DNA from: Comamonas sp. SCN 67-35
GTDB taxonomy: Bacteria; Pseudomonadota; Gammaproteobacteria; Burkholderiales; Burkholderiaceae_C
Length of the DNA stretch: 64,000 nucleotides
Direction of reading: 5' to 3'
NCBI GenBank assembly: GCA_001725255.1
Contig: MEFV01000002.1
Location: forward strand, 1-64,000
Made by a program: the position numbers and the translations under genes. Under the pieces are notes generated by a model. It saw only the letters and a list, made by a program, of their open reading frames with translations. It did not search any database and was not told the origin of the DNA. Position 1 is the first letter of the stretch, and each line of letters begins with the position of its first letter. Of this stretch, positions 120 to 15,643 are shown in pieces.

Positions 120-3100
120 TTTCTGAGCTGCCTATGCGGCAGTGAACGAAAACGGAGAATTCCGCATCCTGCTCTGTACTTTTCTGAGCTGCCTATGCGG
201 CAGTGAACCGAAGCACTCGCCGCGAAATTGCGGACCAGTATTTTCTGAGCTGCCTATGCGGCAGTGAACATCCCCGCCGAGAGATACGATGTCATCGAGT
301 GTTTTCTGAGCTGCCTATGCGGCAGTGAACAATCGCTATGAGCATCGAGCCTTCGCTGATGGTTTCTGAGCTGCCTATGCGGCAGTGAACGTTGGGGGAG
401 CCGTTCTGGTTCTTCGCTGCATTTTCTGAGCTGCCTATGCGGCAGTGAACGTCAGGCTCCATGGGGTTGTCGCGGTCTCGCATTTCTGAGCTGCCTATGC
501 GGCAGTGAACGACACGGGCCGGGGCGTCACGCACGAGATCGTTTTCTGAGCTGCCTATGCGGCAGTGAACCACGACGACGTGGGCAACCCGCAGGCGCTT
601 GAATTTCTGAGCTGCCTATGCGGCAGTGAACGCGCCCAGCAGGCCCTCAGCCTTGGGCATCCATTTCTGAGCTGCCTATGCGGCAGTGAACACATCACCC
701 GTGCAGCCAGGCAGCCACGGCGGTTTCTGAGCTGCCTATGCGGCAGTGAACACATCACCCGTGCAGCCAGGCAGCCACGGCGGTTTCTGAGCTGCCTATG
801 CGGCAGTGAACCGCCTGCTCGCCAAAGCTGACGACGGCGGTGCTTTCTGAGCTGCCTATGCGGCAGTGAACGGCGGCCAGCGCCTCGGCGTAGCTCACGT
901 TCGTTTCTGAGCTGCCTATGCGGCAGTGAACTCGTGGCGCTGTACGTTCTGGAGGTGGTCTGCTTTCTGAGCTGCCTATGCGGCAGTGAACTGCAGGTGG
1001 ACGACATCGGCCACACCTGGCGTTTTCTGAGCTGCCTATGCGGCAGTGAACAAGAGGCCGCGCTGTACCTCACGCCAGTTCCTTTTCTGAGCTGCCTATG
1101 CGGCAGTGAACACGTTGTCAAACACATTGATGATTTATTTTCTATTTCTGAGCTGCCTATGCGGCAGTGAACAACTACGAGGGGGAGCTGGTCGTCAAGT
1201 GTCTTTTCTGAGCTGCCTATGCGGCAGTGAACCCGGGCCACGCGCAAAACGCACCCCGCCGAGTTTTCTGAGCTGCCTATGCGGCAGTGAACCGAAAGGC
1301 CTGGCTCGACTACCAGGCGGAGATTTTCTGAGCTGCCTATGCGGCAGTGAACACTGGAGCAAACGGCTTCTCGGCCATCCCCAATTTCTGAGCTGCCTAT
1401 GCGGCAGTGAACGCGCTGGCTGCACCCTGAGTGCCCGTGGCGCTTTTCTGAGCTGCCTATGCGGCAGTGAACTTGAAGGACGACGCATGAGCACGATGTT
1501 TTTCTTTTCTGAGCTGCCTATGCGGCAGTGAACGTGGCGCCATGAACCTCAAAACATGGCTTGAATTTCTGAGCTGCCTATGCGGCAGTGAACATCAGTC
1601 CTTCCAGGTACATCCGCCCGCGCTTTTTCTGAGCTGCCTATGCGGCAGTGAACGGTGCCAGTCGCTGGCCATGGAGCGAACAAGCTTTCTGAGCTGCCTA
1701 TGCGGCAGTGAACATCTGTCCTCTCCAGTTACAGGTGATCCGTCGTTTTCTGAGCTGCCTATGCGGCAGTGAACTTTTGATGTGGAGCGGCGTGGATGCG
1801 CTGCCATTTCTGAGCTGCCTATGCGGCAGTGAACACAACCTCGACACGCTCCACACCGATGGATCTTTTCTGAGCTGCCTATGCGGCAGTGAACGCATTC
1901 CGGTCTCCACGGATGATGTGCCAGAATTTCTGAGCTGCCTATGCGGCAGTGAACGCTCGCCGTAGCGGCGCGCCTCTGTCTCGGTGTTTTCTGAGCTGCC
2001 TATGCGGCAGTGAACGACACGCAGCCTTCGACGCACACATTGTCCGATTTCTGAGCTGCCTATGCGGCAGTGAACCCATCGATCAGATTCTTCGCATCGT
2101 CGTCATATTTCTGAGCTGCCTATGCGGCAGTGAACACTTGCAGCGCCGCTACGTGCAGGAGTGGCACTTTCTGAGCTGCCTATGCGGCAGTGAACATCGT
2201 GCTCACTGTCGCCGCCAGCGTCGAACTTTTCTGAGCTGCCTATGCGGCAGTGAACTTGCTCGCGCTCCACGTCGCGCTTGTACTGGTTTTTCTGAGCTGC
2301 CTATGCGGCAGTGAACGTCGTCACTCGCTGCTCGCCCGCCACGGTGGCGTTTCTGAGCTGCCTATGCGGCAGTGAACGCAGGCGGTACCCGCGTTGAAGG
2401 CTTCGAGCTTTTCTGAGCTGCCTATGCGGCAGTGAACAAGTATCGCGACGAGGTGACGTCCACGCACAATTTCTGAGCTGCCTATGCGGCAGTGAACTAT
2501 GCCATGACCCGCGACGACATCATCCGCATTTTCTGAGCTGCCTATGCGGCAGTGAACTGCATGTGCGCGGACTGCGCGCCGAGCTTTGAGTTTCTGAGCT
2601 GCCTATGCGGCAGTGAACATGACAGGCTTGCATGGGTTGGGTGGCCACAGTTTCTGAGCTGCCTATGCGGCAGTGAACGATGATGCGCTCTCGGTGATTT
2701 GGCTGGGCAGTTTCTGAGCTGCCTATGCGGCAGTGAACAAAGCCGCGCGCGCCGCCGCAGCGCTCAAAAATTTCTGAGCTGCCTATGCGGCAGTGAACGC
2801 GGTAGACAAAGTCTGGGGCTTTGAGTCCTGTTTCTGAGCTGCCTATGCGGCAGTGAACCCATCGCTGCGGGCGCCGTTCGCATGCCCGGCTTTCTGAGCT
2901 GCCTATGCGGCAGTGAACCTCCAGGATGTGGTGGATAGCCTGCAGGGTTGCCTTTCTGAGCTGCCTATGCGGCAGTGAACGAAGAAGCGTTTTCTAGCGC
3001 CGCAATGCAAAGATTTCTGAGCTGCCTATGCGGCAGTGAACATGTTCGCGTGTGCGCCGTGCGCCCGTGCCATTTTCTGAGCTGCCTATGCGGCAGTGAA

Positions 3101-6053
3101 CGATCATGTCACGGACGTGCGCGATGTAGCCAATTTCTGAGCTGCCTATGCGGCAGTGAACGAGCAGCGGGAGGCGGCACGAAAAGCCCTGCATTTCTGA
3201 GCTGCCTATGCGGCAGTGAACATGCGCATGGGTCGTGGACTTCGCGGCGAGGTTTTCTGAGCTGCCTATGCGGCAGTGAACTCGGCGCCGCGCTGTGCAG
3301 CGGTTTCGAGCATTTTCTGAGCTGCCTATGCGGCAGTGAACTCGGAGTAGAGATGCAGCGTGGCGCATGAGTGTTTCTGAGCTGCCTATGCGGCAGTGAA
3401 CGACTACTCGATAGCTGCCAGCGCGAATATCAATTTCTGAGCTGCCTATGCGGCAGTGAACGCAACCCTGCTGGTGCAGATGCAGCAGCTCAATTTCTGA
3501 GCTGCCTATGCGGCAGTGAACAGTATTGTTCTGTTCGCGAGCAACATCGAAAATTTCTGAGCTGCCTATGCGGCAGTGAACGTTCAACGGAGCCTGCGTG
3601 CGGCCCTACAGCGTTTTCTGAGCTGCCTATGCGGCAGTGAACCATCAGCGAAGAGCCAGTCAGCGACACCGACTTTTCTGAGCTGCCTATGCGGCAGTGA
3701 ACGTGATCGCTGCGGGGTCTTCCGTTGCAGTGTGGTTTCTGAGCTGCCTATGCGGCAGTGAACATGAAGCGTATCGAGCGGCAGATTCTGGCGGATTTCT
3801 GAGCTGCCTATGCGGCAGTGAACGCTCAAGACACTGCCAAGCGTCAAGACGCAGTTTTTCTGAGCTGCCTATGCGGCAGTGAACAATACGTATGTGGTTC
3901 ATGTGCTCTCCGAGGCTTTCTGAGCTGCCTATGCGGCAGTGAACTTTTTTAGTTACTCGTGTACCATTTGCGCCATTTTCTGAGCTGCCTATGCGGCAGT
4001 GAACGAAGGGCGCGCAGGAGGTCGTGCGCAGGCTTGTTTCTGAGCTGCCTATGCGGCAGTGAACCGTGGTTTCCATCGTGCGCAGCTACTGCCTTCTTTC
4101 TGAGCTGCCTATGCGGCAGTGAACAATCGGAAACGGTTACCGATCCGGCGCTAAACTTTCTGAGCTGCCTATGCGGCAGTGAACCCTGACGAGCGAATGG
4201 GCGAAGTTCGGCGACATTTCTGAGCTGCCTATGCGGCAGTGAACTCTGGAAGGCGACATCCTTCGGGTCGTACAGCTTTCTGAGCTGCCTATGCGGCAGT
4301 GAACATCAGCATCGCCGGCCGGCGTGCTGGCCTCGATTTTCTGAGCTGCCTATGCGGCAGTGAACCACCCCTTGTCTCCGCCGCGCTGTGCGCAACCTTT
4401 CTGAGCTGCCTATGCGGCAGTGAACAACTATGCGCCGGCGTCGGAATGCTCGGAGAATTTCTGAGCTGCCTATGCGGCAGTGAACACGGAGGGTAGTCTT
4501 AATCCCTTTCAATTCATTTTCTGAGCTGCCTATGCGGCAGTGAACAACCATAGATTGCCTTCTGTTGCCGTCTCAGCTTTCTGAGCTGCCTATGCGGCAG
4601 TGAACGCTCGCAGTAGAGGATCAGCACCTGTGGTTGATTTCTGAGCTGCCTATGCGGCAGTGAACGTCGTCGGGGCCGTATCGGCTTGTCCGGGCATTTT
4701 CTGAGCTGCCTATGCGGCAGTGAACTGATGCGCTTCACGGCTGCACCCCTGCGATGTTTTCTGAGCTGCCTATGCGGCAGTGAACACTTTGAAACCATCC
4801 TTCGTCGAATGATTGAATTTCTGAGCTGCCTATGCGGCAGTGAACTAAAGTGACGCGCAGATTTATTGTTACGCTTGTTTCTGAGCTGCCTATGCGGCAG
4901 TGAACTTGATCGTCGTCATACGTGGCGCTTCAGCGTCATTTCTGAGCTGCCTATGCGGCAGTGAACGTCGCATGTTCGCCTCGGTGGGGCATTGCTGAGT
5001 TTCTGAGCTGCCTATGCGGCAGTGAACGCAGCCGAGTCGCAGCAGCAGGCGGATGACGATTTTCTGAGCTGCCTATGCGGCAGTGAACTGCGGGTGCAGG
5101 CCAGCTGCCAGAGCATTTGCTTTCTGAGCTGCCTATGCGGCAGTGAACCGCCCGTCTCCCGCAGCCGCGCGCGCTCCTGGTCTTTCTGAGCTGCCTATGC
5201 GGCAGTGAACTTCCACCAGGCCATCAGAACCGACAAGCCCATCTTTCTGAGCTGCCTATGCGGCAGTGAACGGATCAAAGCCAACGGCGGTCATGGTGCC
5301 CTTTTTCTGAGCTGCCTATGCGGCAGTGAACGATGTTCTCGCCAGATGACAAAGGCCGGGACATTTCTGAGCTGCCTATGCGGCAGTGAACGGACCGTCT
5401 CCGCGTTGTTAGCGAACAGCAAATTTCTGAGCTGCCTATGCGGCAGTGAACAACAAGGCCCTGACCGAGGGGACAACCGAGCAGTTTCTGAGCTGCCTAT
5501 GCGGCAGTGAACTTCGCACCCGGCGCGAGGCCGAAGCCTGGGCGTTTCTGAGCTGCCTATGCGGCAGTGAACCGTGCAAGGGCTTCTCGGGCCTGCTCTC
5601 CGAATTTCTGAGCTGCCTATGCGGCAGTGAACTTGAGCACATGGCCCACAGGTGGGCAATCAAGTTTCTGAGCTGCCTATGCGGCAGTGAACTCCACGTA
5701 GCGCACCCAGCGGCGGGCCTTGAGTTTCTGAGCTGCCTATGCGGCAGTGAACTCGCGCGCCGCCGCGTCGTCCTACAGCTACAATTTCTGAGCTGCCTAT
5801 GCGGCAGTGAACCCCGGCGTCGAGGCCGCCAGCAAGGCGGCAAATTTCTGAGCTGCCTATGCGGCAGTGAACGTCGCTGCCGGGGTTCGGCAGCTTCTTG
5901 AACATTTCTGAGCTGCCTATGCGGCAGTGAACAATGTAATCTGCCCTGTCATAGTTTTTGCTTCCTTTCTGAGCTGCCTATGCGGCAGTGAACGTCCTGC
6001 ATCGCCTTCATGCCCGGCTGATCGATTTCTGAGCTGCCTATGCGGCAGTGAAC
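120..6053 (-). CRISPR. Type I-F CRISPR array, 99 repeats and 98 spacers
   Basis: A 28-bp repeat recurs every 60-61 bp. Read on the minus strand it starts GTTCA, carries the stem CTGCC/GGCAG around loop GCATA, and ends in the handle CTCAGAAA, the classic I-F repeat cleaved by Csy4. Counting one repeat per 60-base line gives 99 repeats from 120-147 to 6026-6053. Spacers are 32 or 33 nt. I saw no mismatch in any repeat, even the leader-distal one. The leader lies at the 6054 side, so spacers near 6000 are the newest. One repeat-spacer unit is duplicated (692-723 and 752-783). Many apparent proteins with repeated FLSCLCGSE or VHCRIGSSE are translations of the repeat, not genes. Confidence 0.99.
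692..783 (-). repeat. Duplicated spacer within the array
   Basis: The spacers at 692-723 and 752-783 are identical and adjacent, separated by one repeat. This fits a unit duplication by recombination between repeats in the older, leader-distal part of the array rather than two acquisitions. Confidence 0.97.
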
Positions 6054-6183: not shown

Positions 6184-6759
6184 TCAAAACCACGGCACCG
6201 TCGCCTCATGCGCCAACCCGTAGGCATTGAACACCCCGGGCATGGGCTGAGGCAACAGCGGCCCGTGCTCCACACACAGGTTAAACGGCTGCCCGGTGCT
6301 GCCGCTGCGCAGTTGCACGAACGGCAGATTGGGGCGGCGCTCCACGCTGTCGGGAATGGCGGCTGCGGCCTGTTCGGCGGTTTCGCCCTTGCGCTGCATT
6401 CGGCGGCGGCGCAGGCGCTCGGCGTTGGTCTTGAACTGGCGCCGGCGCACGGTGCGGTGCTGGGCATCGGCGGGCGCTGAGCACGCCGTGGTCACCTGGG
6501 TGTGATCGCGCATTCCTTTGAGCCAGTCCTGTGCCATCAAGCGCTGCAGCGCCTCGGCCGTGCCGTGCAGGCGCAGCACGGCGCCCAGGGTACGCCGGGC
6601 CTGGGGCTGGTTGACGTGCTGCGGGTAGCTCACGCCGATGTCGGTGGTTTGCCCCTGCACCAGCACCCGGTGCAGTTTGGCCACCAGCGCCGCCAGCAGG
6701 TGCGCGTGGCTGAACTCGGGGTCGGGCAGCAGGGTGATGTCGATGTAGTGCGTGGTCAT
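6184..6759 (-). CDS. cas6f: Cas6f/Csy4 CRISPR RNA endonuclease
   Basis: This 191-aa protein is the usual size for Csy4. It cuts the I-F pre-crRNA just after each repeat hairpin and stays on the 3' stem as part of the Csy complex. His30 in KLHRVL aligns with the catalytic His29 of the Pseudomonas enzyme. The arginine-rich helix RLRRRRMQR (about 115-123) is the expected groove-binding helix, and the protein ends in the family-typical VPWF. It is the last cas gene before the leader, six bases after csy3. It should also process the mini-CRISPR at 10340-10398, whose hairpins keep the stem shape. Confidence 0.97.
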   Translation of the reverse strand: MTTHYIDITLLPDPEFSHAHLLAALVAKLHRVLVQGQTTDIGVSYPQHVNQPQARRTLGAVLRLHGTAEALQRLMAQDWLKGMRDHTQVTTACSAPADAQHRTVRRRQFKTNAERLRRRRMQRKGETAEQAAAAIPDSVERRPNLPFVQLRSGSTGQPFNLCVEHGPLLPQPMPGVFNAYGLAHEATVPWF

Positions 6760-6764
6760 GGTGA

Positions 6765-7793
6765 TCAGCTCGCGTCGCCAAACACGCCGCCACGGATCAG
6801 CACGGCCATCACGAAGTGCTGCTGCTCCACAGACGGCACCTGGTCTTTCAGCAGCCAGTTGTCCAGCAGGGTGTAGAAGTCCAGCTTCTGCTTGGGCTGG
6901 CGGTAGGCCTTGCCCTGGGTGGTGACCGAGCCGTAGGGCTCCACCGCAATCGGGCCCAGCTCATCCGCGCCTTCGTACCAGGTGTCGATGGTGCGGATGG
7001 CGTTGCCAATTTTTTGCGAGTGGATGGCGGCGATGCCGTCCACGGCGTACAGCGTTTTGCTCTTGCCGGCGCTGCCCTTGTCCAGAATCAGCTCTTGCGA
7101 TGGAAACACCTCTTGCCCCGCGCCCTGGCGCACAAAAGCCGTCACCCGCAGCAGCACATGCGCGGTGCCGGCCAGTCCGGTGGCGATGACTTGACCGAGT
7201 TCTGCGAGTCCGGTTGCTTCATTATTGATAACTGACATCGCTCGTGTATTCAGCGTTAGGGAATCAAAAGACCATGGATTCCCCACGGCCTGGCCGCCCT
7301 GCATGTGCTCCACGGTCACGTCCACGCTCTCGGCTCCCACGCGGTTGCGCCACAGAAAGCGGCCATTGGCCAGGTTGGCCGCGTAGCGCCGGGCCAGCTC
7401 GGCAAAGCCGTGTTGTTGCACATAGCCCTGCACGGTGGCCCGCAGCTTGGCCTGGTAGGCCGCGCTGTTGCAGGCCGATGGCGTGCCCGCGCCACCGAGC
7501 ACGCGCAGCGTGAACTGCACCTTGAGCGTGTCGGCCTGCGGCGGCAGCGCGGCCACGTCCACGGTTTGCAGGTTGGGGTTCTCGATCGCCGCATCCAGCT
7601 TGGCGGGGTCTTGATCCTTGGCCTTGAGGCGGTTGCTGATGGTGCCGCGCACGGACTTCGGTCGGATGGTCACGGGTGGCCAGGCGTGCGACTGGGCGCG
7701 GTCGTCCCAGCGGCCAGCGTGGAACACAGCGTCGGAAGGATCGAGCTTGCGCTCGAAGGCCAGGACGGAGGCGGTGGTGAGTTTGTCGGTCAT
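6765..7793 (-). CDS. cas7f: Cas7f/Csy3 backbone subunit
   Basis: This 342-aa protein matches the length and position of Csy3, which polymerises in six copies along the crRNA spacer to form the helical backbone of the I-F surveillance complex. The ATG at 7793 is preceded by AAGGA-like bases about 10 nt upstream. It lies 56 bp after csy2 and 5 bp before csy4, so the four csy genes form one operon. Recognition rests on order, size and the N-terminal stretch [19 protein letters not shown], typical of Csy3. I cannot point to single catalytic residues because the subunit is structural. Confidence 0.96.
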
Positions 7794-7849: not shown

Positions 7850-8920
7850 TCAGGTGTAGTCGTAGGCATCGGCGTCGTCCCAGTTCTCTGATGTAGGGGC
7901 CTCGCTATCGTCCAGCTGCGGGCTGGGCCGGTAGCCACTGCGGCAGCGGTACAGGCCCTGGGCCTCGTCGGTATCGGCCTGCCACAGCAGTTCGATCAGG
8001 CTGTGCAGCCGGTGCGGGCTGATCCATTCACCCAGCGAATAGACCGACTCCACGAAGCGCAGCGGCACGGTGGCGTCGCGGGCGTTGCGCACTGCGCCTG
8101 CGGGATGTGCCACCGGGGTCAGGGCGGCGTAGCCGACGGGGATGGGCACCACCCAGCCGCTGCCCTTGGGGCGCTGCGGGTCGCCCCAGGCCACCTTGTC
8201 GTCGGGCGCTGGGCTGCCGTCAGCACTCGGCAGGGGCTGGTGATTGAAGCGGGCCGCGTGCAGCCAGGCATCGAACAGCGTCGCTTCGGGTTGGGTGGTG
8301 CGCAGGTGCTGCAGGCGCTCGGCGAGCAGCCCGTCGCGCCCCACCAGGGCAAAGCCGGGCAGCCATTGCCTGCGCCACTGCCGGAACGCAGTGGCAGCGG
8401 CCTCGGGGTCGTCGGGCACGATGGCCATCCACGGTCGCACCCGCTTGCCCGGCACGGGGCGCGAGGGCAGCACGCTGCCACCGGCCACGCGCATACCCGC
8501 CAGCGTGTCGCCCGCGATCCGCGCCCAGTCGGCCAGTTGCGCGTCGTTGCCCTGCACCAGTGCAGCGGGCGTGCCGGGGGGGCGTTTTTCTGACACGGCC
8601 AGCACCAGCGTGATCTGCAGGTGCATGCGGCCCTCTTCCACGATGGCGGCGGTGCTGCCGTCCTTGTCCACAGGGTTGCGCGTCAGGTTGAAGCAGCGCA
8701 CATAGCCTTGCGTGACCTGCTCCTGGTGGTGGTGGCACACCACGCCCACAGCCTGCAGCCGCAGCGGTACGCCGGCCTGCGCCAACTTGCGCTCCAGTGC
8801 CCACATCAGGCCGGTAAAGGCGGTGATCGACGGAAAGCCGTGCGTGAGCGGGGTGGCGATGGCGTTGGCGTTCTGGATGCGCAGGTGGGGTAGGACGAGA
8901 ATGGCTTGGGGTTGGGTCAT
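7850..8920 (-). CDS. cas5f: Cas5f/Csy2 subunit
   Basis: This 356-aa Csy2 homologue pairs with Csy1 at the 5' handle (CTCAGAAA) of the crRNA to form the tail of the Csy complex. The N-terminal stretch [21 protein letters not shown] is typical of the family. The start ATG overlaps the csy1 stop by four bases (ATGA) and GGAGG lies ten bases upstream inside csy1, implying coupled translation. The 56-bp gap to csy3 holds no obvious promoter. Confidence 0.95.
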
Positions 8921-10275
8921 GGCGCCACCTCCATAGTCACACCATCGAGCCGGTCACGCAGGGAACGCAGTTGCAGCTGAAAACCGTCTTCGTCGGCCAG
9001 CAACACCTTCGCCCACTCACGCGCTTCGGCATCGCCCAGAGGCAGCTTGCCGCGCAGTTGCGCGTTCAGCCAGTTGGCAAAGCGCTTGCCGATGTCGGTA
9101 GGCCAATCCATTTGCAACCATTCCTGGGCAAAGGCAGTCTGGTCGGGAAGCTCGGCGCGCAAAGGGTCAAGCCAGAGCTGCTCGCTGCGGTGCAGATTTG
9201 CAAACCGCTCGTCGTCCAGGCTCCACCCCGGAGGCAACTGCTGCTGCAGCTCGGCAGCCAGCGATACCAGTTCGTCCAGCAGCGTGTCCAGCAGGGCCTC
9301 GCGGCGCTGGCGTGTGGCCAGATTCGGTTCGGGGTCGGACTCCAGAAACTGCCGCAGCGCCCGCACGGTGCGGCGCACCTCGGGGCGGGCGATGAATAGG
9401 CGGTCAAACACCGAACCGGCCTGCACCGGCAGCCGCATGGCGCTGGTCTGCCACTGCGGCGGCAGGGATGAGAGTAGGTAGTTCATGCCCCGACGTTCGC
9501 TGTTGAGCTGGCTGATGTTCTGCGGCTTGGTACCGCCCATGTTCTGCACAGCCAGGCCGGGGTAGTCGTGGAACACGCCGTCGTGCGCCTTGCGCTCTTT
9601 TTTCGCCACGCGGGCAGCCTTGTTGGCTTCGCCAAAGCGATCTTCCTGCACCTGGACGTGTACCGCATGGGCCAGCGACGTGGCGTACAGCGGCGCCAGC
9701 AGGGCGTAGTCCGCATCGGTGCACGCGTCGTCGCCGGTCAGCCAATAGAGTTGCTTGGCCAGGGTGTGGCTACTGGGCCCTTCGGCGCGTGGCTGTGTCA
9801 GCGACACGAAGGCGTCGCGCAGCGCCTGGGCTTGGGCCGGGTCGCTGTGCAGCGCGGCCAAGGCATCGGCCTCCTGCGCCAGCAGGGCGGTGAGCAGGCT
9901 GCGCCCATGAACCTCCAGCTTGAGAAATTTGTATACATCAAGCGCGGCGGCATTGCCCACCACATCGCCCGCAAAATGCTCGCCCAGTGCGTGGCTGCCG
10001 AGTTCGGCCAGCGTCGGTAGCCTGGCAGGCTCCACGTAGAGGTTGGTACCCCGTGCGTCGGGATGGATGGGCTTGAGGGAGTGGGTGACGGCCTGGATTT
10101 GGGCCACTCGGTGGGATGCGTCGGCAATCCATGTGGTGGGATTGTGCTGCGCGAGGAGTTCAGGGCGTTTGGGATCGTCATCCTTGAGCTTTTCGAGCTT
10201 GGCTTTCAAACGTTCGCTGATGAAAGTCGCAATCGCGTCTTTCCAGGATATTTCGATTTGAGGCGGTGTTGCCAT
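8917..10275 (-). CDS. cas8f: Cas8f/Csy1 large subunit
   Basis: This is the first gene of the csy operon and the PAM-reading large subunit of the I-F complex. I start it at ATG 10275, giving 452 aa beginning MATPPQIEIS, because GGAGGA sits 5-8 bases upstream. The open frame runs on to 10401 only because it reads through the promoter and the mini-CRISPR. Length and position fit Csy1; the family has few invariant motifs that I can point to. Its promoter is the apparent target of the crRNA-like RNA encoded just upstream, so csy expression is probably self-limiting. Confidence 0.95.
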   Translation of the reverse strand: MATPPQIEISWKDAIATFISERLKAKLEKLKDDDPKRPELLAQHNPTTWIADASHRVAQIQAVTHSLKPIHPDARGTNLYVEPARLPTLAELGSHALGEHFAGDVVGNAAALDVYKFLKLEVHGRSLLTALLAQEADALAALHSDPAQAQALRDAFVSLTQPRAEGPSSHTLAKQLYWLTGDDACTDADYALLAPLYATSLAHAVHVQVQEDRFGEANKAARVAKKERKAHDGVFHDYPGLAVQNMGGTKPQNISQLNSERRGMNYLLSSLPPQWQTSAMRLPVQAGSVFDRLFIARPEVRRTVRALRQFLESDPEPNLATRQRREALLDTLLDELVSLAAELQQQLPPGWSLDDERFANLHRSEQLWLDPLRAELPDQTAFAQEWLQMDWPTDIGKRFANWLNAQLRGKLPLGDAEAREWAKVLLADEDGFQLQLRSLRDRLDGVTMEVAP

Positions 10276-10304
10276 TGCTCCTCCTTTACAGATTTGGTTG
10301 TAAT
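10275..10304 (+). promoter_or_regulatory. Candidate promoter of the mini-CRISPR RNA
   Basis: TTGCTC (10275-10280), 18 bp, TGTAAT (10299-10304) reads toward the mini-CRISPR and would start transcription near 10311, just before its first repeat. The -10 box matches five of six consensus bases and the -35 box three of six. It overlaps the csy1 ribosome-binding site on the other strand, so the two promoters face each other and would compete. No other plus-strand promoter is evident before the first repeat. Confidence 0.45.
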
Positions 10305-10331
10305 ATGCCATGATGTGCGTAGCTTTGTCGA
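10302..10331 (-). promoter_or_regulatory. csy1 promoter holding a CC-PAM protospacer
   Basis: On the minus strand TCGACA (10326-10331) and CATATT (10302-10307) are separated by 18 bp, matching five and four consensus bases. The 18 bp between them (10308-10325) are, on the plus strand, CC followed by ATGATGTGCGTAGCTT. CC is the I-F PAM, in the correct position. The next 16 bases equal the first 16 bases of the mini-CRISPR spacer. Past base 16 the match falls to scattered positions. Binding here by the Csy complex would sit squarely on the RNA polymerase site. Confidence 0.75.
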
Positions 10332-10363
10332 GCAGACAGCTCAGAAAATGATGTGCGTAGCTT
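10310..10363. repeat. 16-bp direct repeat: csy1 target and guide seed
   Basis: ATGATGTGCGTAGCTT occurs at 10310-10325 and again at 10348-10363, 38 bp apart. The first copy follows CC and lies in the csy1 promoter. The second follows the CTCAGAAA handle of the degenerate repeat. This is the signature of a guide and its target rather than a random duplication. Confidence 0.9.
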
Positions 10364-10398
10364 GTTCGTACACATTCCATTGACTGCCGCATAGGCAG
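10340..10398 (+). ncRNA. CreR/CreA-like crRNA from a mini-CRISPR
   Basis: Two degenerate I-F repeats flank one 31-nt spacer. Repeat 1 (10320-10347) keeps the handle CTCAGAAA exactly, and its hairpin is kept by paired changes: TTGTC (10325-10329) with GACAG (10335-10339) in place of CTGCC/GGCAG. Repeat 2 (10379-10406) keeps the hairpin CTGCC/GGCAG and loop GCATA, but its 3' end has decayed. Csy4 cuts after 10339 and 10398 would give a 59-nt RNA with a proper 5' handle and 3' hairpin. Only the parts of the repeats that end up in the mature RNA are well conserved, as reported for the Cascade-guiding CreA and CreR RNAs. The spacer seed matches the csy1 promoter. Confidence 0.82.
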
Positions 10399-10400
10399 CA

Positions 10401-10415
10401 TACCGAATAACGGTA
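10401..10415. promoter_or_regulatory. Inverted repeat, probable HigA operator
   Basis: TACCG-N5-CGGTA lies 26 bases before the higB start and directly after the conserved part of mini-repeat 2. HigA-type antitoxins repress their own operons through such short palindromes. TATAAA at 10421-10426 could be a -10 box, but its -35 region is poor. higBA may therefore also be read from the mini-CRISPR promoter. Confidence 0.55.
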
Positions 10416-10440
10416 AGCGCTATAAAATCTCCTCCATCCC

Positions 10441-10722
10441 ATGGCGATCCTCTCTTTCAAGTGCCAGGAAACGCAGCGTTTGTTTACCAACGGCAAGAGT
10501 CGGCGCTTTGCCAACATCCAGAGCGTGGCGGAGCGCAAGCTGGCCCAACTGGATGCGGCAGCCACCCTGGATTTCTTGCGCAGCCCGCCGGGCAACCGGC
10601 TGGAACTGCTCAGCGGAGACCGCCAGGGCCAGCACAGCATCCGCATCAACGACCAATGGCGCGTGTGCTTTGTCTGGAGGGATAAAGGCGTGGCCGACGT
10701 GGAGATCGTGGATTACCACTGA
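10441..10722 (+). CDS. higB: HigB-type (RelE-fold) toxin
   Basis: This 93-aa protein belongs to the RelE/HigB killer family, ribosome-associated mRNA endonucleases. The family pattern is clear: an N-terminal KSRRFANIQ region, the central LRSPPGNRLELLSGDRQGQH, then the beta-strand stretch SIRINDQWRVCF and a C-terminal DVEIVDYH. The order, toxin before antitoxin, is the higBA order. No Shine-Dalgarno is visible; CTCCTCC before the ATG is its complement, and a start from TATAAA at 10421 would leave a leader of only about eight bases. It runs opposite to the cas genes and divides cas2-3 from the csy operon. Confidence 0.92.
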   Translation: MAILSFKCQETQRLFTNGKSRRFANIQSVAERKLAQLDAAATLDFLRSPPGNRLELLSGDRQGQHSIRINDQWRVCFVWRDKGVADVEIVDYH

Positions 10723-10776: not shown

Positions 10777-11088
10777 ATGTTCAAAAATGGCATGCGCCCC
10801 GTCCACCCTGGCGAGGTGCTGCGCGAGGACTATCTCAAGCCCATGGACATGAGCGCCAACGCCCTGGCCCGGCAGCTGCATGTGCCGGCCTCGCGCATCA
10901 ATGACATCGTGCTGGAGCGGCGCGGCGTCACGGCCGATACAGCCCTGCGCCTGAGCCGCTTCTTTGGCGGCGATGCGCAGTCGTGGCTGAACCTGCAGAC
11001 GGCCTATGACCTGCGCGTGGCCGAGTTGGATGAGGCGCTGCAGACGGCGGTGATGGCAGTGCACCCCATGGCGCTGCATCCGGCCTGA
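10777..11088 (+). CDS. higA: HigA antitoxin, XRE-type helix-turn-helix
   Basis: This 103-aa protein opens with the family hallmark RPVHPGEVLREDYLKP, followed by the HTH segment MSANALARQLHVPASRIND (about 26-44). HigA neutralises HigB and represses the operon by binding an operator, probably the inverted repeat at 10401-10415. I use ATG 10777 rather than the upstream GTG at 10753 because AAGGAG lies six bases before it. The gap to higB is 54 bp. It converges with cas2-3 with only five bases between the stops, and no terminator is visible there. Confidence 0.94.
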   Translation: MFKNGMRPVHPGEVLREDYLKPMDMSANALARQLHVPASRINDIVLERRGVTADTALRLSRFFGGDAQSWLNLQTAYDLRVAELDEALQTAVMAVHPMALHPA

Positions 11089-11093
11089 CAGGC

Positions 11094-14000
11094 TCATTTT
11101 TTTGTGGTGAAGCCCAGGGTTTCGTGGAACAGCCAGCCATTCTGGCTGCGAGGCAGGCTGACGGTGGCATAGCGCTCGGCGCATTGCTGCAGCAACAGGC
11201 CTTGTGCCTGGGCCAGGGTGGTTAATTCGCCCATCAGATCGACTTGCGGCCAGGGTGAAACGCTGGGGGATTGCAGCAGCGCCTGCGGCACCTCGTGGCA
11301 AAGGCTTTCATGCACTGGCACGTACAGCTTGTCGCCCCGGCGCGATCCATCTTCTGCGCGGTGCAGCCGCAGAGTTTCTTCATCCTCGTCAGGCAGCAGC
11401 GCCACGTCTTCACGCGGTATGTCGTCATGGCGAAAGCGCTGGTATTGCGGCAGCAGGCCGGTGAGCCACAGGTGATCGGGGTGGACCCAGTGCAGGCTTG
11501 CCGCCCGGATGGGGGCCGTGGTGTATTTGCTGGCGGCTGAGCGCTGCAGCATGGCATCGCGCATACGTTCGTGCTCCAGGTCGACCCAATTGCGGCCAGG
11601 GTGGTAGTGCGCCGTGGCTGCCGAAATACGCGGCTGCGCATCGACAGCCCATGGCACATCGCCTTTCACGGTGCGGGCCAGCAACTGGTGTAGATCGTGG
11701 GCCTCGAAACGAAAATGCTGCGCTGCATCCGAGGAGCCAGCAGGCTGGGGGTTCATCTCAAAGCCCGGCTTGCAAAACGCTGCTTTGCCGGGGCGCTCGT
11801 AATGCCGCAAATTGCTGTCCAGCACCACCATATTGACCCCGTCCACGGCCCAGCCCCGGTGCCGCCGTACACGCCCGGCAAGCTGGATGAGCGAACGCAT
11901 GGACGAGGGCTCGACCACGGCCCAGTCGTAGTCGTGGTCGCGGCCCACTTCGGTGACGGGGCTGCCGAGCACGATGAATAGATGGTGAGGTTCAGGGTAG
12001 GCGTCGATCAGTGCACGCAAGGCCGGGTGCTGTAGTGCAGGATCAGTTCCGTCTTTGCTACGGCGGTTGAGCAGGCTGTCGAGCTGCCGCTCGATGGCCG
12101 AGCGCAGCAGCAACGGGTATTGCGAGTGGTAGGCGCACAGGTGGATATGCACGCCGGGCGCGGGCGTACCCTGCTGGTAGATGGCCAGCGCCACGTCGTA
12201 CAGCGGCGCGATGTTGGCCATGCGGATCAGGCCCAGGCTCACGCGCTTGCCCGTTGCGGTGTCGGTGCTGTGGTTGTGGGGTTGCTGGTGTAGTTGCCAC
12301 GCCTGCTCCAGCACCAGGCGGGCAAAGTCCTGGCGCCGCTCGGCCTCCTTCATGCCGTGCCAGGTGTCGGGCAGGCTCGCAATCCGTGCCCGGCGGCGCA
12401 CTTCGGCCTGTGCCAGCCGGGCCACGCGCTTTTGCACGTACTGCGCGTGGGCTGCGCGGAAGGCGCCGCCGTCGGCGCAGTCTTGCGCGGCCTGGTGGAA
12501 CTCGTCGATCCATAGGCAGCAGATGCTCACCGGCTCGCCGGGCCGCTCGCTGCGGTGCTGCAGGTACACCGTACGCCCGGCGCGGTAGGCCAGGAACAAG
12601 CCCTCCACCAGCGCAGGCGGCAAAGTGGCGGACGACAGCAGCACGCGGCTGCCCAGCAGGCCCGCCCAGTGCACCAGCCGCGTGAGGGCGGGCAGGTCGG
12701 CCATGTCGAAGTCGTCGGGCTCGTCCAGCACGAGGTCGCTGCTCAAGAGGCGGAGCATGGGTGCGATCTGGCGTCCGCCGCGCAGGCTTTCGGTGGCGGG
12801 TGTCAGGTGATCCACGGTGCAGACCAACAGCGGCGCGGTGATCAGGCGGCGTACCTGCGCATCGTCGGTCAGGCGTTGCAGCAGGGGGTGCTGGTCGTTG
12901 CCCTCAAAGAGCACGGCACCGGCTTCGTCCAGCAGTTCCTGGCGCGAGGCGGAGCCGGTGGCTTCTGCCTGCTGCTCCCAGTATTCGAACAGCGCGCGGC
13001 TGGCCGATCCGCCCACTCGAATGGCAAGCTGTTCTTCGTTCAGCCCCAGGTCGTTTTGAAAGCTGCGTCCGGTCTGCAGCGTGAGCGTGCGCAGCCCGAT
13101 GGCAAAGGCGCAGCGCATCCCCGTGGCCGGGTCGGCCAGGGCGTTCATCACGCGGGCGTTGGCCAGCGTCTTGCCGCAGCCGGTGGAGGCCATGTTGACG
13201 ATGAAAGCGCCTTGCGCCGCCGCCTGGGTGCGGAGGCTGGCAGCCAGGTCGGCAGACTTGTCCTGCCAGGCAAAGCGGGTGTCGGCGCTGCGCTTTTTGA
13301 GCGGCTTGTGGTTTTTCAGCGCAGGCAGGCTCTGCGCCAGGCTGGGCAGCGAACGAGCCACCAGCGTGGCGTGGGCCTGCACGCCCAGCAGGTGCTCATC
13401 CAGGGTTTGATTGAAAATCGGGCCTTGACGCTTGTCTGGTAAACGCAAGTGGCTATCATTTTTGACAGTATTAGCGCCCAGAGGATAACTCTCGTTGAGA
13501 AAAGGCTGGCGGCGTGACCGGTCTGTGATGCTGGAATAGTGGTGATCCGCCAGCATCAGGCACAGGCGCGAGACATGCATGGCGAACGGGTCGTGCAGCA
13601 CCGGCCCGCTGGCGGGGGATGTCGAGAGCTCCAGCAGCTTGCGGGCGTAGCGGGCAGCCTGCTTGCGCCAGGCGGGCGTGGCCACAGGCAGGCCGTACGG
13701 GAAGTGCCAGTGCGCTTGCACCGTGGCCGGGTCTGTACGTTCACGCGGCTCGTTCCAGTCGGCGCTGATGCGTGCCAAGACGCCATCCAGGTCGTTGGCA
13801 TTGACGAAACGGGGATGGGCGCCAAAGCGCTGCCACTGCGCGCGGGGTTCGCCTATGTCTTCGTCAGAACTACCGTCAGGCAGCTTGATGGGCAGACACG
13901 GCAGGCGGTGGTGAGTAAACACCAACCAAGCCACCGCCTGGGCCAATGGTGCATGGGCTAACGCGGCAAAAGGGGTACTCCTCTGGGCTGCAGGCTCATC

Positions 14001-14609
14001 CAGCCCATCGCGCAGCAGACGCCCACCTCGGTAGTCCAGCCACATTGCTTCAAACGCCTTGGCATCCGCATCCGGCTCGGCGCAAGCCACCAGCCGCTGC
14101 AGCCACTGCGCATCGTGGTCGCTGCCCACAAAGGCCTGGAACAGCCGCACCGACACCCACTCGTGCCGGTAGTGGTTGCGCTCGCGCAGGCCGGGATTGC
14201 GCAGCCGATCCTGGAATGCCTGCGTGGCCTTGCCCAGATCGTGCAGCAGGGCAGCCAGCGCCGCCAGAGCCGTCATCAGCGGCAGGAGGTGCCAGGCATT
14301 TTCATCCTCGGTGCGCAGCACGTTGCGGGCGGTGGTGCTGGTGGGCACGGCGCCCTGATCGTTGAACTGTCGGGTGTCGCCCACCACCCACAGCAGTTCG
14401 CTGTGGTCGCGCCCGCGAATCCAGTGACAGGCGACGGCGGTGTTCTTGCGCGCGCTCTGGCGCAGCAACTTGCGCACCGCGTCCAGCCCGGCCTGGGTGA
14501 TGGGGGTCTGCCAGGTGCGCTCGCCCCGGCGTTCGGCAAACTGGTCGAGGATGCGGCGCGTCTCTGTCAGCGCATTCTTGGTGCATTGGGCAACGAACAG
14601 CACGTTCAT
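11094..14609 (-). CDS. cas3f: Cas2-Cas3 fusion: nuclease-helicase with Cas2 domain
   Basis: This 1171-aa fusion protein is specific to type I-F. Residues 1-95 (starting MNVLFVAQC) are the Cas2-like part that joins Cas1 in spacer integration. The HD nuclease follows, with LLHDLGKATQ at 121-130. Walker A is STGCGKT near 475-481 and the DExD-type motif DEPD near 629-632. After the Csy complex binds its target, Cas3 unwinds and degrades the DNA. The start overlaps the cas1 stop by four bases (ATGA). It is cut off from the csy operon by higBA and the mini-CRISPR, so adaptation and degradation genes have their own promoter upstream of cas1. Confidence 0.98.
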   Translation of the reverse strand: MNVLFVAQCTKNALTETRRILDQFAERRGERTWQTPITQAGLDAVRKLLRQSARKNTAVACHWIRGRDHSELLWVVGDTRQFNDQGAVPTSTTARNVLRTEDENAWHLLPLMTALAALAALLHDLGKATQAFQDRLRNPGLRERNHYRHEWVSVRLFQAFVGSDHDAQWLQRLVACAEPDADAKAFEAMWLDYRGGRLLRDGLDEPAAQRSTPFAALAHAPLAQAVAWLVFTHHRLPCLPIKLPDGSSDEDIGEPRAQWQRFGAHPRFVNANDLDGVLARISADWNEPRERTDPATVQAHWHFPYGLPVATPAWRKQAARYARKLLELSTSPASGPVLHDPFAMHVSRLCLMLADHHYSSITDRSRRQPFLNESYPLGANTVKNDSHLRLPDKRQGPIFNQTLDEHLLGVQAHATLVARSLPSLAQSLPALKNHKPLKKRSADTRFAWQDKSADLAASLRTQAAAQGAFIVNMASTGCGKTLANARVMNALADPATGMRCAFAIGLRTLTLQTGRSFQNDLGLNEEQLAIRVGGSASRALFEYWEQQAEATGSASRQELLDEAGAVLFEGNDQHPLLQRLTDDAQVRRLITAPLLVCTVDHLTPATESLRGGRQIAPMLRLLSSDLVLDEPDDFDMADLPALTRLVHWAGLLGSRVLLSSATLPPALVEGLFLAYRAGRTVYLQHRSERPGEPVSICCLWIDEFHQAAQDCADGGAFRAAHAQYVQKRVARLAQAEVRRRARIASLPDTWHGMKEAERRQDFARLVLEQAWQLHQQPHNHSTDTATGKRVSLGLIRMANIAPLYDVALAIYQQGTPAPGVHIHLCAYHSQYPLLLRSAIERQLDSLLNRRSKDGTDPALQHPALRALIDAYPEPHHLFIVLGSPVTEVGRDHDYDWAVVEPSSMRSLIQLAGRVRRHRGWAVDGVNMVVLDSNLRHYERPGKAAFCKPGFEMNPQPAGSSDAAQHFRFEAHDLHQLLARTVKGDVPWAVDAQPRISAATAHYHPGRNWVDLEHERMRDAMLQRSAASKYTTAPIRAASLHWVHPDHLWLTGLLPQYQRFRHDDIPREDVALLPDEDEETLRLHRAEDGSRRGDKLYVPVHESLCHEVPQALLQSPSVSPWPQVDLMGELTTLAQAQGLLLQQCAERYATVSLPRSQNGWLFHETLGFTTKK

Positions 14610-15643
14610 GCGGTGCCCTCCTGGGGCTGCAGCGGCGTTTGCACCGGCCGGGCGGTCTGGAGGGCGATGTCTTTGAGTGTGTCGATCATGAAGTCCAGCG
14701 ATTCATTTTGCGTCAACGCCTCGATGCATTGGCGGCGAAACTGCTGCTCGTCGTCGCCCCGCATGGCAGACAGAAAGGCCTGCGGCAGGATGGCTGCATC
14801 CTTGACCAGATCGGCTGCATCGAACACCAGCCCGCCGCGCCGCGTCTTACCGTGCAGCACCGCTAAACCATGCGGCAGACCCAGCACCCAGGTGGCCGTG
14901 GCGCCCAGGCCATAGGCCAGGTAGTTGCCGTGGTCCAGAAAGCGGTTCGCGGCGTCGGTTCCCGTCCCGCGCTTGGCGCGGGTGAATTCGCCGTAGCCCA
15001 CCGCATCGACGGCCAGCTTGAACAAAGCCTTGGTGAGCTGCGCCTCGTCAGTCAGCAGCGCCGTCACGTCGGGGGCGTTGGCAATGCGCGGCGTGAACTG
15101 CTGCACCAGCGCCTGCAGGCGGGCCAGATCGACGGTGAAACCGGCTTCGCGCAGGGCGCGGGTGTTCCATGCGGCCAACAGGCGCTGCAGCCGCCGGGTC
15201 TGCAGTTGCTGGGCGGCGTGCAGGCGCAGCGCGTCGTCGAACCAGAACTGCACCCAGGCTTGCAGGTACTCGGTCGGCCGATATTCGCTTTGCGGCGTGA
15301 GCCAAGCCACCTCTACATCCACCTCATTGGCGGCGAACAGCGGCGTGCCGCCGCCACCACAAAAGCCCACCAGCACGCCGGCCCTGGCCAGCTCGCGCAT
15401 CGCGGCCTGGGTGATGGAGGTGCCCGTGCCCAGCAGAATGCTGGTGGTGTTGGCGATGGGGATGTTCCAGTACAGGCTTTTCTTGCCCGCGTCGGTCACG
15501 TACTCCACACGGCCGCTGTTGACGAGCACGCGGCAGTGCTCCAGGTAGTAGAGGTTGGCGCGTTTGGAATGCAGGATGCTCTTCGTTCCTGCTGTATCCG
15601 TATCGTGTGTCTGGTGCATAGGAAGTCTGCAAAAGCCTATCAA
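14606..15643 (-). CDS. cas1: Cas1 integrase, type I-F
   Basis: Cas1 inserts new spacers together with the Cas2 part of the fusion. The I-F hallmark is the segment SILHSKRANLYYLEHCRVLV followed by IPIANTTSILLGTGTSIT and GFCGGGGTPLF. The metal-binding region is near FLDHGNYLAYGLG and GLPHGLAVLHGKTRRGG. The 345-aa version uses TTG at 15643. ATG at 15619 would give 337 aa, closer to the family start. Neither has a clear ribosome-binding site, so the start is open. It is the first gene of the cas1-cas2-3 unit. Confidence 0.96.
   Translation of the reverse strand: MIGFCRLPMHQTHDTDTAGTKSILHSKRANLYYLEHCRVLVNSGRVEYVTDAGKKSLYWNIPIANTTSILLGTGTSITQAAMRELARAGVLVGFCGGGGTPLFAANEVDVEVAWLTPQSEYRPTEYLQAWVQFWFDDALRLHAAQQLQTRRLQRLLAAWNTRALREAGFTVDLARLQALVQQFTPRIANAPDVTALLTDEAQLTKALFKLAVDAVGYGEFTRAKRGTGTDAANRFLDHGNYLAYGLGATATWVLGLPHGLAVLHGKTRRGGLVFDAADLVKDAAILPQAFLSAMRGDDEQQFRRQCIEALTQNESLDFMIDTLKDIALQTARPVQTPLQPQEGTA

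Follow-up and report, generated by a model that had tools for sequence, protein, structure and literature searches.

The gap between cas3 and csy1 in a type I-F CRISPR-Cas locus of Comamonas sp. SCN 67-35 holds a single CRISPR-like unit that stands apart from the main array, and the question it raises is what such a unit guides the Csy complex to. We analyzed a 64,000-nucleotide stretch of contig MEFV01000002.1, hereafter the window, and collected its features in Table 1. A first-pass annotation had described a lone two-repeat, one-spacer unit on the strand opposite the cas genes, and the strands agree with that description: the unit is on the plus strand, and the array and csy genes are on the minus strand. 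The same gap also contains a HigB/HigA pair, likewise on the plus strand. Among the Csy1 matches listed, the closest named relative was that of Comamonadaceae bacterium isolate MH_R1_12 (L009), which is 92% identical.

Table 1. Features of the type I-F locus, the mini-CRISPR, and the adjoining toxin-antitoxin pair, in window coordinates.
Feature	Position	Strand	Basis or remark
Main I-F array	120-6053	-	99 exact repeats, 98 spacers
cas6f/csy4	6184-6759	-	Pfam
csy3	6765-7793	-	Pfam
csy2	7850-8920	-	Pfam
csy1	8917-10275	-	Pfam Cas_Csy1
Predicted guide promoter	10285-10314	+	TTTACA 10285-10290, 18 nt, CATGAT 10309-10314; consensus scan
Predicted csy1 promoter	10331-10302	-	TCGACA 10331-10326, 18 nt, CATATT 10307-10302; consensus scan
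CC PAM of target	10308-10309	+	Sequence
Target (protospacer)	10310-10341	+	Bases 1-16 (10310-10325) identical to spacer; 23/32 overall
psiR1, degenerate repeat	10320-10347	+	18/28 like array repeat; hairpin 10325-10339, 5' handle 10340-10347
Predicted 59-nt guide RNA	10340-10398	+	Csy4 cuts predicted from repeat anatomy
Spacer, 31 nt	10348-10378	+	Repeat anatomy
psiR2, degenerate repeat	10379-10406	+	21/28 like array repeat; hairpin 10384-10398
Palindrome TACCGAATAACGGTA, likely HigA operator	10401-10415	+	-10-like TATAAA at 10421
higB-like toxin gene	10441-10722	+	Pfam HigB-like_toxin
higA-like antitoxin gene	10777-11088	+	Pfam HTH_3
cas3	11094-14609	-	Pfam
cas1	14606-15643	-	Pfam

Several details of the locus were recorded in passing. 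Two neighboring array spacers at 664-811 are identical, and a PAM-proximal match of 14 bases to one main-array spacer lies outside the array, somewhere in window positions 6101-64000. The array repeat also occurs near 75184 of contig C15 in the same genome, which has 127 repeat matches in total, 99 of them in the window. The csy1 frame remains open upstream across the mini-CRISPR (10276-10401, minus strand; a 494-aa frame), which is likely chance.

The anatomy of the unit is that of a guide bounded by degenerate repeats. The 8-nt handle of psiR1, CTCAGAAA, is intact, and its hairpin has five pairs in which TTGTC/GACAG replaces the CTGCC/GGCAG of the array repeat. In psiR2 the hairpin letters are identical to those of the array repeat and the 3' end is not kept. 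Rfam gave a weak CRISPR-DR4 match to psiR2 at 10384-10402 (20.7 bits, under the cut-off of 35), and the whole unit folded no better than its shuffles (z = -0.92; 38 of 200 shuffles folded equally well). Because the spacer is 31 nt, the 59-nt RNA proposed earlier fits the unit. CreR RNAs, which regulate cas genes, were reportedly described by Liu et al. in Cell Host Microbe in 2023; two of their features are present here: a lone spacer flanked by degenerate repeats away from the array, and repeats that keep the Cas6 hairpin and 5' handle.

A further CreR feature, a PAM-flanked partial match beside the effector operon, is also found. The initial reading held that the start of the spacer matches a site with a CC PAM 38 bp away over 16 bases, and this was confirmed: the window has just two copies of the 16-mer, one at 10310 in the target and one at 10348 in the spacer. 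The PAM of the target lies 32 bp from the csy1 start codon. For comparison, none of the 98 main-array spacers matched CC sites of this intergenic region over more than 8 PAM-proximal bases. Unlike in most relatives, the window pair also matches at positions 6 and 12; relative to L009, the first 16 bases of the target differ only at position 6 and those of the spacer only at position 12. These extra matches, together with those at positions 19-21, could carry a higher risk of cutting.

Matches elsewhere were also considered. The sequence CCATGATNTGCGT was found twice in the whole genome, at the window locus and at C21:45181. We rejected the latter as a second target, as it is a single extra copy with about 0.4 expected, its surroundings having been judged by eye. 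Candidate phage copies of the guide, comprising the handle-plus-seed pattern in 2 viral stretches and the PAM-plus-seed pattern in 47, were taken as chance. A tblastn search of those 49 stretches with eight window proteins gave no hits at 1e-5, and none of the PAM-plus-seed matches had an exact CTGCC-N5-GGCAG hairpin nearby.

We surveyed the cas3-csy1 gaps of related loci, given L numbers here. From at least 561 confirmed contig matches to Csy1 we took the best 80, and we added 8 loci from 100 relatives and 30 fetched from the 42 with a match among 399 family genomes. The resulting 118 loci reduced to 102 unique gaps once 16 duplicates were removed (e.g., L042, which equals L002), and 83 gaps were at least 110 bp long. 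These loci are the best Csy1 matches and are mutually related, and so are neither independent nor a census. Units were detected from structure alone (psiR1 hairpin, handle, and psiR2 hairpin) with a cut-off score of 20.

A unit scoring at least 20 was detected in 56 of the 83 gaps, as compared with a maximum of 19 in 249 letter-shuffled gaps, where shuffles were scored on one strand and real gaps on both. Every one of the 56 units was opposite csy1. All except those of L010 and L116, which had no good target, were accompanied by a CC-flanked target on the unit's strand that agreed with the spacer at 8 or more of the 9 seed positions, and this target always fell between csy1 and psiR1. The same level of seed match was reached by 2/56 on the other strand and by 11/659 in the gaps of other loci, close relatives among them. 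With the PAM requirement dropped, 53 of 55 loci still had CC directly in front of their best site. The unit is not essential to I-F systems, since 27 of the 83 gaps and the 19 short gaps had no scored unit; in one HigBA-bearing locus, L021, the unit is decayed and has no good target.

Type I guides flip every sixth base out of the duplex, and the pattern of identity between spacer and target, with gaps at positions 6, 12, and 18, is as expected of Csy guides. Across the 54 loci, identity at positions 1-5 was observed in 54, 54, 53, 53, and 54; at positions 7-11 in 54, 51, 46, 51, and 51; and at positions 13-17 in 49, 40, 46, 43, and 39, falling to 7, 14, and 8 loci at positions 6, 12, and 18. 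Positions 1-5 and 7-10 had been used in choosing targets, and position 6 and those from 11 onward had not. Selection for mismatches at positions 6 and 12 was not supported, because matches there were as frequent as in shuffles (7 vs 8.3 and 14 vs 11.1; 8 vs 13.3 at position 18). In L107, spacer and target share 22 of their first 24 bases, many more than in most loci.

The 54 loci contain 47 distinct seeds. Among loci picked without reference to the stem, all five psiR1 pairs with a 5-base loop were present in 34 of 54, and the others fit a 4- or 6-base loop. The hairpin was kept through changes on both sides in 15 of the 54. Overall, 205 of 270 psiR1 pairs were formed, relative to 188 on average and at most 197 over 2000 arm swaps. 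The layout that the relatives share makes a chance match unlikely, and the earlier CreR/CreA-like reading is supported at the level of sequence by the same geometry in 54 unique loci, including the window.

Targets fell into two classes and a middle group by their distance from csy1, which rests on start codons chosen by script: 36 far (219-358 nt), 7 middle (67-147 nt), and 11 near (16-44 nt, leaving 14-42 nt from PAM to csy1), the window being near. A Shine-Dalgarno-led mini-ORF of 6-16 codons lay between target and csy1 in all 36 far loci (e.g., L013, L044, and L075), as compared with 0.18 per locus in shuffled sequence. Tandem AGA/AGG codons occurred in 20 of these 36, relative to 0.003 per shuffled locus. 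By eye, we also noted TTA TTA in L015, L016, L023, L044, L074, and L090, and ATA ATA in L075 and L083; several different rare tRNAs are apparently targeted by the far mini-ORFs. The far class appears CreTA-like and resembles CreT as outlined in PMC8501985 and PMC10097628. As a control, the same search recovered the published LoGeW2-3 CreTA locus, which has the far geometry with its PAM about 200 nt from csy1. No mini-ORF was found between target and csy1 in the near loci, where there is too little space for one, or in any of the 7 middle loci.

Near targets had a different hallmark. Read on the csy1 strand, bases 1-6 of the target matched TATAAT at 5 or more of 6 positions in 8 of the 11 near loci and at 4 positions in the other 3. 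Among the remaining targets 3 of 43 reached 5 or more, and none of the 246 other CC sites did (Fisher p = 2e-5, the loci being related). The hexamer of the window, CATCAT, matches at 4 of 6 and is of the poorer kind. No conserved -35 was seen by eye among near loci. Near and far loci interleave on a quickly built Csy1 tree, with at least 5 changes between them, near L002 standing beside far L013, for example.

A consensus scan of 10200-10500 found two promoter-like sites relative to 0.3 expected. The target covers the predicted -35 of csy1 and abuts its -10, CATATT, which is just outside the target. It also overlaps the -10 of the promoter predicted for the guide itself. Taken with the survey, this arrangement makes it likely, in our judgment, that the mini-CRISPR gives rise to a CreR-type guide, probably loaded on Csy, that covers the predicted csy1 promoter and in this way represses the csy operon. 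Csy4 would cut after both hairpins to release the guide RNA, and the loaded complex would bind 10308-10341 through about 16 pairs. Such pairing would be too short for DNA destruction by Cas3 and sufficient to block RNA polymerase at the csy1 promoter, following the precedent of I-F CreA at its own target (PMC10097628) and of CreR as reported for I-B, I-E, and V-A (PMC13131331). The guide's predicted promoter would probably be blocked as well, limiting the guide itself. The resulting feedback loop would keep Csy at a set level, and csy expression would rise when ordinary crRNAs occupy the complex or an anti-CRISPR disables it. The original CreR/CreA-like label holds as far as sequence goes and gains precision here: it had neither told CreR from CreTA nor taken HigBA into account, and in the window's class it is csy1, instead of a CreT-like mini-ORF, that lies behind the target.

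Toxin-antitoxin (TA) genes occur in a number of these gaps. Pfam supported BrnT, HigB, HicB, nucleotidyltransferase (NTP_transf_2), HepT, FitA-type RHH, PIN, and AbiEi among ten gap proteins; a CopG-type antitoxin was below the cut-off and the HicA-like protein of L080 had no match. By eye, we further assigned a Fic-like gene in L067, an AbiE partner in L108, and, in L105, a PIN gene that shares the strand of csy1. In the gaps of L001, L004, L052, L080, L096, and L108, unrelated TA-type families stand behind the guide unit. The higB-like frame of L029 has a seeming early in-frame stop at about gap position 190 with higA intact, and higA was found without higB in L013, L024, and L027.

CrePA, reportedly described by Shu et al. 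in Nat Chem Biol in 2025, suggests another role for the window unit: the Csy-guide complex might mainly silence HigB, with the target in a promoter that transcribes the guide and onward higBA, such that loss of Csy raises HigB. The higB start is only 34 bp beyond psiR2 on the same strand, and no terminator-like site was found in 10200-10500. Searches with nine protein probes placed TA-type genes on the unit's strand, behind it, in 8 of the 11 near loci, 1 of the 7 middle loci, and 8 of the 36 far loci. However, once kinship is allowed for, the apparent tie between the near class and TA genes comes down to 5 independent pairs, counting the AbiE of L108, and these gave it no statistical support (sign test p = 0.25-1). 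Of the 46 loci that lack a scored unit, 13 have TA genes too. HigA is present in cis, so HigB would already be held in check. Of the 8 HigB-bearing loci tested, 7 carry an operator-like palindrome and a -10-like box ahead of higB, L021 with its decayed guide among them, and because of this HigBA is probably a neighbor rather than a gene under control of the guide, most likely transcribed from its own HigA-controlled promoter. Moreover, known CreP has KilA-N, as outlined in PMC12737573, and HigB does not. Silencing of HigB as the main function is therefore improbable in our view.

The far loci invite the idea that the window guide instead represses an RNA toxin that escaped recognition, given that every far locus of the same gap has a mini-ORF and that the Acinetobacter I-F CreTA recovered by our search is in this gap too. 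Yet the 32 bp between target and csy1, which end in the csy1 Shine-Dalgarno, cannot fit a mini-ORF, and the opposite side of the target is occupied by the guide and HigBA; we regard a hidden toxin here as extremely unlikely. It is slightly easier, though still very unlikely, to picture the unit as a relic that currently has no function, either the remnant of a dying array or a short piece of promoter duplicated in tandem. Spacer and target do form a 21-nt direct repeat (90%) with copies 38 bp apart, and both repeats are degenerate. But identity confined to pairing positions across 47 distinct seeds, hairpins maintained by double changes, and the intact psiR1 handle all argue against a relic.

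Repression of csy by the guide, if correct, would extend RNA-guided cas autorepression to type I-F, in the gap used by I-F CreTA. Many anti-CRISPRs are known for type I-F. Dosage control and addiction would become alternative uses of one element, and target-csy1 distance, -10 overlap, and the mini-ORF would provide a sequence rule separating CreR from CreTA. The natural series of guide-target pairs would also bear on how much pairing allows binding without cutting. More tentatively, the I-F cas3-csy1 gap might be an exchangeable control cassette, although we consider this rather doubtful as a whole. Its guide would have one of two aims, a rare-codon RNA toxin (36 loci) or the effector's own promoter (the window's class), and lineages would have changed from one aim to the other several times. 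In loci that have lost the RNA toxin, a type II TA pair would have taken the place behind the guide, and one Csy-bound site would set effector dose and, by read-through, touch the protein toxin pair.

Among known systems, Racr, the phage RNA anti-CRISPRs outlined in PMC10651486, share with the window a repeat-like element outside an array; unlike Racr, the window unit is within a cas locus and has a spacer and a local target. In the viral stretches fetched, we saw no copy of the window's handle plus seed that adjoined a repeat or a cas gene. CrePA, in the outline of PMC12737573, resembles the window in having a CRISPR guide unit with a protein toxin gene next to it. Its toxin carries KilA-N, whereas Pfam gives a HigB-like toxin in the window, accompanied by its own antitoxin HigA. 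The window target is upstream of higB on the same strand and adjoins csy1.

The Acinetobacter I-F CreTA, as presented in PMC10097628, is similar in its position in the cas3-csy1 gap, its psiR1-spacer-psiR2 order opposite csy1, its CC PAM, and the unpaired 6th base of CreA. The same account gives promoter repression by I-F CreA-Csy with 17 paired bases and the CreA 6th base unpaired. Its target is about 200 nt from csy1 and controls a mini-ORF toxin RNA, for which the window lacks room. The window has the crossed psiR1-psiR2 guide with a PAM-flanked target and no toxin RNA gene under that target. Judged by its sequence, the window unit is not CreTA, because the toxin mini-ORF is absent.

CreR is named for types I-B, I-E, and V-A in the portion of PMC13131331 devoted to it, and is described as widespread across type I at large in PMC12737573. 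Its release by anti-CRISPRs is covered in outline by reviews (PMC13131331, PMC12737573, PMC12948488). Titles and abstract openings retrieved in a literature search mentioned neither CreR in type I-F nor type II TA pairs between cas3 and csy1. An I-F unit of the CreR type whose seed falls on a -10 box, among a CreTA-like majority in the same gap, seems novel, and I-F members may already be listed in the primary CreR paper. As outlined in these sources, CreR and the window unit share a mini-CRISPR beside the cas genes with no toxin RNA under the target; the window differs in its I-F effector, in the near-locus seeds placed on a -10-like box, and in the type II TA pair behind the guide.
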